41,355 nucleotides of DNA from Dehalococcoidia bacterium (GTDB taxonomy: Bacteria; Chloroflexota; Dehalococcoidia; GIF9; AB-539-J10). Numbering within the stretch: position 1 is the stretch's first letter; every line of letters begins with the position of its first letter. The notes under the pieces are model-generated. The model was not told where the DNA came from and made no database searches. It worked only from the letters and a program-made list of their open reading frames with translations. Shown here in pieces: positions 26,870-41,062 of this stretch. The translations under genes were made by a program, and so were the position numbers. Location: positions 1-41,355 of the forward strand of contig JAUVZB010000018.1 in assembly GCA_030602785.1 (NCBI GenBank), read 5' to 3'.

Positions 26870-27017
26870 GGCTGCTGACCTGTCAGGCAGCGAGCCAGGG
26901 CAGCAGATTCCCTGTATACAGCCCGCTTGGATCGATTGCCGACCGAGACGGTGAATAGGAGACTCCTGGAGGGTCCTCTCGGTCATGTGTGCCGCGAGGG
27001 CTTTTTTTGTGGTGACG
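26870..27017 (+). promoter_or_regulatory. Structured 5' leader with mutually exclusive hairpins: candidate attenuator or riboswitch
   Basis: The leader folds into hairpin 26871-26891 (GCTGC/GCAGC with an inner TGA/TCA), hairpin 26896-26914 (CAGGG/CCCTG), and then two competing structures. The antiterminator pairs GACCGAGA (26941-26948) perfectly with TCTCGGTC (26977-26984). The terminator pairs 26973-26982 with 26992-27001 and is followed by seven Ts. Both use 26977-26982, so only one can form. This is the classic layout of a transcription attenuator. I do not recognise the sensing part: no T-box core (AGGGUGGNACCGCG) and no known riboswitch core was found. The downstream operon suggests a pantothenate/beta-alanine-related signal (inference). 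Confidence 0.6.
26973..27008 (+). terminator. Intrinsic terminator inside the pan leader
   Basis: Ten-pair stem (26973-26982 with 26992-27001) with one mismatch and one G-T pair, nine-base loop, then TTTTTTT at 27002-27008. It lies 9 bp before the ATG of the P1 peptidase, so no separate promoter fits between it and the gene; it must be conditional for the operon to be expressed. Confidence 0.7.

Positions 27018-34641: not shown

Positions 34642-34649
<8 letters not shown>
34612..34649 (+). other. 5' arm of the pre-23S processing stem
   Basis: This stretch pairs with 37577-37614, including G-T pairs, over about 38 positions with few mismatches; the inner 8 pairs (GGTCAAGG / CCTTGACC) are helix 1 of 23S. 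Such a stem is the normal RNase III substrate, and shows that this 23S is excised from its own precursor. Confidence 0.75.
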
Positions 34650-37584
<2,935 letters not shown>

Positions 37585-37633
37585 TATGTCAAGTCGGATA
37601 CAAAACGTTTTCGAAGCGCGGATGCGCACCCGT

Positions 37634-37708
37634 CGCGGGGTAGAGCAGTGGAAGCTCGTCGGGCTCATAACCCGGAGGCCGTTGGTTCGAATCCAACCCC
37701 CGCTACCA
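37634..37708 (+). tRNA. Initiator tRNA-fMet (CAT), CCA encoded
   Basis: Cloverleaf of 75 nt including CCA: acceptor CGCGGGG / CCCCGCT with a C1:T72 mismatch, three G-C pairs below the anticodon loop (GGG CTCATAA CCC), and T-arm GTTGGTTCGAATCCAAC. The unpaired first position and the GGG/CCC stem are initiator marks, so this is the start-codon tRNA, not elongator Met. It lies 49 nt after 23S in the same transcription unit. Confidence 0.95.
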
Positions 37709-37750: not shown

Positions 37751-37876
37751 TCCTTTTGCCTTGTGGCAGTCGCATGTGGCCAGGGAGGAAGGGGCCGCGC
37801 GAGAAGGAGCTGTCGCTGCTTCGCCGGGCAATCAGCGCCTGGCAGGCGAGTCGGCCCTGCGCATTCAGCGCAATGC

Positions 37877-37920
37877 GGCTGTCCCTCCAGGCCAGCCACT
37901 TTCTCGAACGGCGGCGGCTT
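37877..37920. repeat. Accessory-region repeat, copy 1
   Basis: Shares GGCTGTCCCTC, AGCCAC and TTCTCGAA with 39903-39944 at nearly all aligned positions apart from a short central gap. It overlaps the recombinase remnant. The two copies bracket the Fic gene and the tandem array in the same orientation. Confidence 0.5.
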
Positions 37921-37976
37921 TCGTTGGGCGTCAGCCAGCATTCGCTGGAACTCGGGCTAGTCCGGGTTGAACCCGG
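37891..37976 (-). pseudogene. Serine-recombinase remnant
   Basis: On the minus strand an in-frame stretch reads NPD*PEFQRMLADAQRKPPPFEKV, matching the block just before the catalytic-domain core of large serine recombinases (usually RPEFQRM.ADA..KPPPF). A stop codon sits inside and the flanks do not continue the family, so only about 28 codons survive. It implies that a mobile element once integrated near the tRNA. The rest of 37751-38133 shows no gene. The call rests on this short match. Confidence 0.4.
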
Positions 37977-38133
37977 TCAGGCCATCATTCCGGCAGCCCA
38001 CCACGACTTCCCTGCCCTTGCCCCGTGCGAATGACTGACATTCGTTCTCTCCGCCGAGGATCGGGATATCCTCTCCTGCCTGCGTGTCCGTGGAGACTCG
38101 GCAGGAGATGGCTGCTTTCATGGCTATCAGTCT

Positions 38134-39225
38134 CTACGTACCCGTTCCTCGAGGCACTTCCTTGAGCTCCACAGTCGGCAAGTAACGTCTAGCCCGCGTG
38201 GTCCCTTGAGCCTCCAGCAGCTCCAACTGGGCGAGATGTCTGAGATCCCGAGTCGCGGTGACGGACCCGACCCCGGTGATTTCGCGGTAGTCCCCGCGAG
38301 TCAGGTGACCCAACCGGACGGCGTAGATGAGACCGTCTATCTGCCGGTCTCTCAAGCCGTATTCCTTGTACCGGTTGTGGATTGAAGCTACCGTCATCTG
38401 CCAGTCGGTCAATCGTCTCTCTAGGGCTGCTGCTTGAGCCACAACCGACTTGGTGAAAAAGTGAAGCCATGGCGTAGCGTCGTATGTAGTAGTGAACTCC
38501 GGTCCCACCGATTCACGAAGCGCGTTGATATAGGGATCCCGGTTTCTCTGGTAGTAGGCGTCCAGAGACAGCAGCTTGCGGAATCCGTACCCGGATAGCT
38601 GGAGAAGAAGGGCGGCTAGAAGGCGCGCGGTGCGGCCGTTTCCATCGATGAAGGGATGGATTGCCACCAAGTGCAGGTGGGCGATGCCAGCTTTGAAGAT
38701 CTGGTGGATCTCAGTGGAATCCCGAAGCCAGTGCGCTAAGTCAGGCATGAGATGCGGCACATCGAAGTGCGTCGGAGGGCTGTACACTGGGACTGCGTTG
38801 TCACCCACCTTGTTGTCAACTTTTCGATACTTGCCAGGTTGTGCGCGGCCTCCGTCGATCCCCGACATTAGGGTGAAGTGGATGTTTCGGATGGTCACTT
38901 CAATGGTCTCGAGGACATTTCCCGGTTCATCGGAGAGAGCATCCACCCGTTCCAGAGCCCTTCCGTAATTGTTGACGTCGGGTCGCTCTTTTGGGATCGA
39001 CGCTGCAGGCGAGGGCTTCGCGGCTTCCTCTAGTTCCTGCTCGCTGATTGAGGCATTCTCGACCATCGTTGAGGTGTAAGCCGTGCGCACGAAGGCCTCC
39101 CTCCGGAGCCACTGTTCGTGTTTTGGCATTATGAGCATGTTCTCGATCCGGAATCGGAGCCGGTCAATTTCCTGAAGGTTGTCCTGCAGTATTTGGGAGT
39201 CAGTATTGAACTTCGGTGAGAACAT
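38134..39225 (-). CDS. Fic-domain protein, class II (AMPylator-type), with C-terminal winged helix
   Basis: 363 residues. The catalytic motif HPFIDGNGRTAR (His190) is complete, so transfer of AMP from ATP to a target protein is expected. An N-terminal helix carries STMVEN (52-57), fitting the [S/T]xxxE[G/N] inhibitory motif that blocks ATP binding in class II Fic proteins. The C-terminal part (about 290-350) looks like a winged helix (LTRGDYREITGVGSVTATRD). Start: AAGGAGGT is 5 bases before the ATG at 39225; the longer frame to 39303 runs beyond it and is rejected. A stand-alone gene next to a repeat array and recombinase remnant; typical of accessory regions. Target unknown; no antitoxin gene seen. 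Confidence 0.9.
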   Translation of the reverse strand: MFSPKFNTDSQILQDNLQEIDRLRFRIENMLIMPKHEQWLRREAFVRTAYTSTMVENASISEQELEEAAKPSPAASIPKERPDVNNYGRALERVDALSDEPGNVLETIEVTIRNIHFTLMSGIDGGRAQPGKYRKVDNKVGDNAVPVYSPPTHFDVPHLMPDLAHWLRDSTEIHQIFKAGIAHLHLVAIHPFIDGNGRTARLLAALLLQLSGYGFRKLLSLDAYYQRNRDPYINALRESVGPEFTTTYDATPWLHFFTKSVVAQAAALERRLTDWQMTVASIHNRYKEYGLRDRQIDGLIYAVRLGHLTRGDYREITGVGSVTATRDLRHLAQLELLEAQGTTRARRYLPTVELKEVPRGTGT

Positions 39226-39396
39226 GAACCACCTCCTTTTCGCAGAGACGACGACTACGTCGATGAGCTGCTGTGTTGGGGATTGGTTTGTACGCGCTGC
39301 CACTGCTGATCGATGCCGTGCTCCTGTTTGCGACCTGCGTTGTGTGCATTGGGCTGATTCGGCTTTCCCTGGCTCATCAGCTCCGCGTTGACAGCG

Positions 39397-39830
39397 ATGC
39401 GCATCCTATGTGCACGACGCGCAACATGATCATATGATCGAATGAATATGATCATCAGCTGTTTCATGATGATGATGCGCATCCTAGCGCGCGACGTGCA
39501 ACATGATCATATGATCGAATACATATGGCCATCAACTCGTTCATGATGATGATACGCATCCTAGTGCACGACGTGCAACATGATCATATGATCGAACAAA
39601 TATGATCATCAGCTGTTTCATGATGATGATACGCATCCTGGTGCACGACCTGCAACATGATCATATGATCGAATGAATATGATCATCAACTGTTTCATGA
39701 TGATGATGCGCATCGAGCAGCACGATTGTGTGGGCGAATGGCTATGAGCATGAACGCCGTCGCCATCGCGATGTTCATCATGGTCGTCAACATGATGCGT
39801 GATCATATGGTCGAATGACCGCTGTCACCA
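39397..39830. repeat. Tandem array of 77-78-bp GATC-rich palindromic units
   Basis: Four consecutive units: 39397-39474 (78 bp), 39475-39551, 39552-39628 and 39629-39705 (77 bp each), then degenerate copies to about 39830. Each begins AT(G/A)CGCATC, carries GCAACATGATCATATGATCG (which includes the perfect palindrome GATCATATGATC), and ends TTCATGATGATG. Units 1, 3 and 4 have three GATC sites each, and the array is AT-rich in a GC-rich genome. The 77-bp period is not a multiple of three, so it is not protein-coding. No spacers vary as in CRISPR. Function unknown; iteron-like or protein-binding array is possible. It lies upstream of the Fic gene. Confidence 0.85.
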
Positions 39831-40141
39831 TGATTGCCGTGGCGATGATGTGAATCGCTCTCGGCGGTCTCATGTTGTCGTGTCAGGCATGCGACCTCAA
39901 CGGGCTGTCCCTCGGATAGCCACCTTCTCGAATGGCGACGGCCTGCATGAAATGCTGTGTCGGCTCCATCAACGGTGGGCAAGCAAGCTGACTGAGGCGT
40001 TCGAGATGGATGGAGAGAGCGGTTTCGTGAAGCATCCGTGTGACTTGTTGCAGAACTCATGCCGGAGCCGTGGTGACAGACCTGTGCGGTTGTTCGTCGT
40101 CTCCTGGGGCAGGTGGGTGGGGACACCGGACGTCGGGGACT
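39831..40141. other. Intergenic region with no supported gene
   Basis: About 310 bp after the array. It holds the second accessory-region repeat (39903-39944) and an open frame on the + strand without recognisable domains or ribosome site. Confidence 0.5.
39903..39944. repeat. Accessory-region repeat, copy 2
   Basis: Counterpart of 37877-37920 in the same orientation, 2 kb apart, with the shared blocks GGCTGTCCCTC, AGCCAC, TTCTCGAA. Outside these blocks the flanks differ. Confidence 0.5.
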
Positions 40142-41062
40142 CTAGTGTGCAGGAACGTCGCCTTTAAGCACTTCGATGATGTGTTGTCTCAGGAGAGCAG
40201 GTGAGAGCGCTGCCGTGATGTGGCCCCGCTCCATCACGCGGATGGGGTGGTTCTCGTAGCACTCGCGTTGTCGTTCGAACACTATGTACTGGTCATACCT
40301 CGCAAGCAGAGGGAACACATTGTCCGTCTTCACTTTCTGATAGTCCGCCTCGAAGTTGAGCAGCTCCCTGACGAGTTCAGGGTGGCGCCTGCCCTGCTTG
40401 CCCAGCAGGCGGCGATAGGCCGACGATGTGAACAAGTCGCCGTGCGCGGCTCCGGAGAGGAGGGGGACGTACAAATCTGCCGTGTCATAGTGAGTCCGGT
40501 GCAGATTGGTGACCAGGCCGCCAAGACTTATTCCCGCAACCATGATGCGTGGACTGCCCTCTTCACGGCAGACGCGAATCAGCGCGTCTATCAGCCGGAC
40601 CGAGGTCGCCAGCATTGCCATGAAGTTCGTCAGGTCTCCCATGCGGCGCATGTAGTCCCTCGTTGGCCAACGGTGGAACGGTGCACGGACAACGATGAGG
40701 TTTGCCTCTATGTGGCGGACGTCGGCAGCGAGAACAGTGCGAAAGGTGTTCTTTGACCTGCTGCCGAAGTCGAAAGGACGTTCCTGGTTGCCGTGGTGGT
40801 AGATGATGGTGGGAGAGGTGGGGCCCCGCCAGTGGTAGACGAAGAACGCCGGGTCCACCCTGCCGACAAGCGTATCAGCGGACAACTCGTGCCGACCGTG
40901 AGTGAGTTCCGGTAGGGGCTGCAGGTGCACGTGCGCGAGGTGCTCCCGCATGGGGGCGCTTTCGACAGTTCGCTGAAAGAAGCGGTCCCGCCCCGTTTCC
41001 AGTGCGGCCATATGCAGCGCGAAGAGATCGACGAAGGCGTGCCGGTTCAACCTATCTCTCAC
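40142..41062 (-). CDS. Alpha/beta hydrolase family protein
   Basis: 306 residues. The oxyanion-hole segment IIYHHGNQERPF (88-97), nucleophile elbow GISLGG with Ser179, and a late His281 in RGHITAAL are the expected alpha/beta hydrolase triad parts; the Asp may be in the LLARYDQYI stretch. No signal peptide or membrane helix, so cytosolic. The start GTG at 41062 follows AGGAAA closely; the ATG at residue 18 is an alternative. No neighbour hints at the substrate; it could be an esterase, lipase or peptidase. Confidence 0.75.
   Translation of the reverse strand: MRDRLNRHAFVDLFALHMAALETGRDRFFQRTVESAPMREHLAHVHLQPLPELTHGRHELSADTLVGRVDPAFFVYHWRGPTSPTIIYHHGNQERPFDFGSRSKNTFRTVLAADVRHIEANLIVVRAPFHRWPTRDYMRRMGDLTNFMAMLATSVRLIDALIRVCREEGSPRIMVAGISLGGLVTNLHRTHYDTADLYVPLLSGAAHGDLFTSSAYRRLLGKQGRRHPELVRELLNFEADYQKVKTDNVFPLLARYDQYIVFERQRECYENHPIRVMERGHITAALSPALLRQHIIEVLKGDVPAH

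Follow-up and report, generated by a model that had tools for sequence, protein, structure and literature searches.

A palindrome-rich tandem array upstream of a fic gene in a Dehalococcoidia bacterium, a candidate intergenic minisatellite

Intergenic minisatellites of bacteria (VNTR-type arrays) are built of non-coding units of tens of bases that are repeated head to tail at a single locus, with a homogeneous core and decayed copies at the edge. In a Dehalococcoidia bacterium we analysed a stretch of 41,355 nt, here called the window, and within it a tandem array with the same properties: head-to-tail, non-coding units at one locus. TRF placed the array at 39396-39714, with a period of 77 bp, 4.1 copies, 88% matches and a score of 510. 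TRF reported no other array in the window, and none in a 331-kb genome sample scored higher; that the genome also has tandem repeats that differ in sequence and score lower is a point in favor of a minisatellite. The four well-conserved 77-bp units (39396..39714) were spaced by a repeat finder at exactly 77, 77, and 77 bp and differ from each other at several bases. Two more diverged copies follow in register (39717..39857, end approximate), and their local alignment to the unit scored 76 compared to 47 +/- 7 for shuffles, none of 500 being as good. Counting these, the total is about six copies, with the decayed ones at the edge far from fic and the four similar ones nearer to it, a pattern that also argues for a minisatellite. 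No further unit copies were found in the gap between fic and the array (39226-39395). An earlier, sequence-only reading had described a tandem array of 77-78-bp units beside a Fic gene, with four well-conserved units and then degenerating copies, and was correct on each of these points. It had also called the array non-coding because the period breaks the frame. The array is indeed non-coding, as no long ORF in the ORF list of the window crosses it and short ORFs occur at chance level, but a break of frame is not a valid reason in itself.

The simplest account of the array, which we favor with modest confidence, is a palindrome-rich intergenic minisatellite that has grown by local duplication inside a variable Fic segment. 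Slippage during replication, or a switch of template, would have produced head-to-tail copies of a sequence upstream of fic, with its short palindromes promoting the process; copies far from fic have decayed, while the four nearer to fic stayed similar. The array belongs to a Fic segment of about 2 kb that a congener lacks. We infer that it plays no essential role; no function need be assumed for it, and its position leaves room for an effect on fic transcription.

The adjoining gene (38134..39225, minus strand) encodes a Fic-domain protein of 363 aa (Pfam PF02661, E 6.9e-19, and translation). The translation contains the Fic motif HPFIDGNGR, and HPFIDGNGRTAR satisfies the pattern HxFx(D/E)GNGRxxR. 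STMVEN is a possible inhibitory motif, and the C-terminus may form a winged helix, with a weak match to a regulator below the Pfam cut-off. Within the order, its nearest Fic relative is remote (32%). Gene order at the locus is 23S rRNA (34642-37586, plus strand), tRNA-Met (37634-37708, plus strand), fic, the array, and an alpha/beta hydrolase gene (40142-41062, minus strand). Alongside 23S rRNA and tRNA-Met (34642-37708), Rfam detected no 16S or 5S rRNA in the window. In another part of the window, a pan motif RNA (26870-26955; 36.8 bits, just over the gathering score of 36.2) was detected upstream of the genes for a peptidase S58 and a pantoate-beta-alanine ligase. The start of fic is best placed at the ATG at 39225, which is preceded by the SD sequence AAGGAGG. 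As the gene runs on the minus strand, the array lies on its 5' side and ends approximately 170 bp upstream of the ATG, a position that counts against a minisatellite.

This position is the first argument for the main rival explanation, an operator or promoter array for fic in which the dyad of each unit is bound by a candidate regulator, possibly the C-terminal winged helix of the Fic protein itself. Each unit carries on the strand of fic a promoter-like pair, [C/T]TGATG-N18-TATGAT, that points to the gene; however, such sites are not above shuffles (2 compared to 1.6). The weak C-terminal regulator match lends the rival some support, but is below the cut-off. The dyads themselves cut both ways. 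The 12-bp palindrome GATCATATGATC occurs in 4 of 4 good units (39428..39439 in unit 1, and at 39505, 39582, and 39659) and has no further copy in the 2.57-Mb genome; a variant, GATCATATGGTC, is located at 39801. A second palindrome, ATGATCAT, is found in units 1, 3, and 4, and unit 2 has ATGGCCAT in its place. Both palindromes had been noted from the sequence, one in every unit and the other in three of four, and both were recovered. In unit 2 the changes are symmetric (GTGCAC to GCGCGC and ATGATCAT to ATGGCCAT), so that both sites remain palindromes (P 0.013, post hoc), which weakly favors an operator and counts against a minisatellite; two other palindromes are broken. Palindromes are somewhat more abundant in the unit than in shuffles (P 0.036), while the 12-bp palindrome alone is not above them (P 0.22). 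The longest invariant block across units has 22 bp, and its P value of 0.063 lends weak support to an operator and was also counted for a minisatellite. Diverged copy 6 retains 18 of the 19 bases of the palindrome block, a point against a minisatellite; in diverged copy 5 the core of the dyad is gone, which speaks for a minisatellite and against an operator. Furthermore, no comparable array occurs beside the other Fic genes that we fetched from viral contigs and congeners. Taken together, a role of the array as a control region for Fic is possible, and the operator explanation in this form appears doubtful, though worth weighing. It is unlikely that the array represents a Fic regulator of an undescribed kind, be it a tandem operator bound by the winged helix of Fic or an RNA from the repeats that holds Fic in check. 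Taken as a minisatellite, the array is nothing unusual; it would become important only through a demonstrated control of fic by its units, since we know of no Fic enzyme that is controlled by repeats upstream of its gene, and a literature search for the combination of such a repeat array with a Fic gene returned nothing.

The minisatellite reading draws further on comparison with other genomes. In congener G006, the end of the 23S rRNA gene, tRNA-Met, and the hydrolase gene are joined directly, without the Fic gene and the array, and the hydrolase protein is 95% identical to the one here. By blastn and alignment with stretch L016, the segment that is present here and missing at the same G006 locus spans 37931..39896 (boundaries approximate). 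It is bounded by imperfect direct repeats on the plus strand, at 37847..37930 on the left and 39879..39943 on the right; the repeat sequence has two copies here and a single copy in G006. Since G006 has the same locus without fic and array, about 2 kb are variable, and this comparison of two genomes fits an insertion here or a deletion in G006 alike. The absence of the segment from G006 counts for a minisatellite, as does the restriction of the array to a single locus: searches of 60 related genomes and of plasmid and phage collections, as had been proposed for relatives and plasmids, gave no copy of the unit. The 20-mer AACATGATCATATGATCGAA is likewise absent from viral contigs and its single match in the genome collection, within an open reading frame of a Cytophagaceae MAG, appears fortuitous. 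That the array is an assembly artefact, with a wrong copy number or a wrong junction with the fic segment, is quite improbable: the assembly, a draft, consists of 141 contigs and has an estimated contamination of 5%, but both flanks match the congener, and the units differ at several bases, so that reads could tell them apart.

The array had been described from the sequence as AT-rich on a GC-rich background, and this held, with 42.9% GC compared to 60% in the genome sample; 3% of 319-bp windows have a GC content as low. More conspicuous is the tetranucleotide GATC, which occurs 11 times in the 319 bp of the array (34 per kb), compared to a maximum of 6 among sampled 319-bp windows. In the genome GATC is strongly avoided, with an observed/expected ratio of 0.35 in a 290-kb sample (L025-L044), and ratios of 0.17-0.28 were obtained for congener stretches (L045-L047). 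One further congener contig, L048 (G005:C68), has a nearly normal ratio of 0.79 and is possibly foreign or from another organism. We regard GATC avoidance in the genus as the stronger side observation, against which the array is conspicuous; its GATC density in a genome that avoids this site counts against a minisatellite. The fic part of the segment has a near-normal density of 6.2 GATC per kb (9 in 1461 bp), compared to a background of about 1.5 per kb (Poisson P 5e-4), while the tetranucleotide composition of the fic part and the segment is not unusual. As the tetranucleotides are ordinary and the GATC density alone favors a foreign origin, a recent arrival of the Fic segment is only suggested by its sequence. 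The proposal of a methylation-sensitive, Dam-type control of the Fic gene found no support, as neither this genome nor its six congeners have a Dam match above the curated cut-off (TIGR00571). A predicted D12-class DNA methylase gene adjoins that of a NotI-family restriction endonuclease on another contig (L049 847-2665, G000:C51); it is the one D12 methylase found.

The remaining explanations are best judged against the systems that they invoke. The array resembles type III toxin-antitoxin loci (ToxIN-like) in that its repeats immediately precede a toxin-like gene and share its sense orientation, and a repeat RNA might accordingly restrain Fic. RNA from the minus strand folds somewhat better than plain shuffles (z -2.98); compared to shuffled units in tandem, however, the difference shrinks to z -1.9 (4 of 150), and with this control RNA structure as the function of the array is marginal. 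No terminator was found between array and fic (39226-39395), and near the array Rfam gave a chance-level match but none that reached the gathering score. Type III toxins belong to the ToxN/CptN/TenpN family, whereas the gene here encodes a Fic protein (PF02661), not a ToxN-type nuclease or other type III endoribonuclease, that apparently has its own inhibitory motif. We therefore consider a repeat RNA very unlikely. Folding of the plus strand is at chance level (z 0.07). Chained overlapping mini-ORFs (MNMIISCFMMMMRIL..., with the stop/start overlap ATGA) on both strands were rejected as chance, since dinucleotide shuffling of the unit yields them in 62% of cases on the plus strand and in 84% on the minus strand; both results count for a minisatellite.

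The idea of an integrated element stands in so far as a segment with fic and array, bounded by direct repeats, is missing in a sibling genome, and fails in that fic is its sole gene. Plasmid iterons share with the array repeated dyad-containing units in AT-rich DNA, but it is hardly credible that the array represents the iterons or the partition site of a plasmid or phage that has integrated: the segment has no integrase, replication or partition gene and thus no adjacent Rep (replication-initiator) gene, plasmid and phage collections gave no match, and iterons are usually much shorter than the 77-bp unit. Like REP/BIME elements the array is palindromic and intergenic, but it occupies one locus and is not dispersed, and it repeats the whole 77-bp unit without the unique spacers of a CRISPR, so that both had rightly been set aside from the sequence alone. 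From the bacterial intergenic minisatellites that it otherwise resembles, the array differs in being palindrome-rich and in being GATC-rich for its genome.
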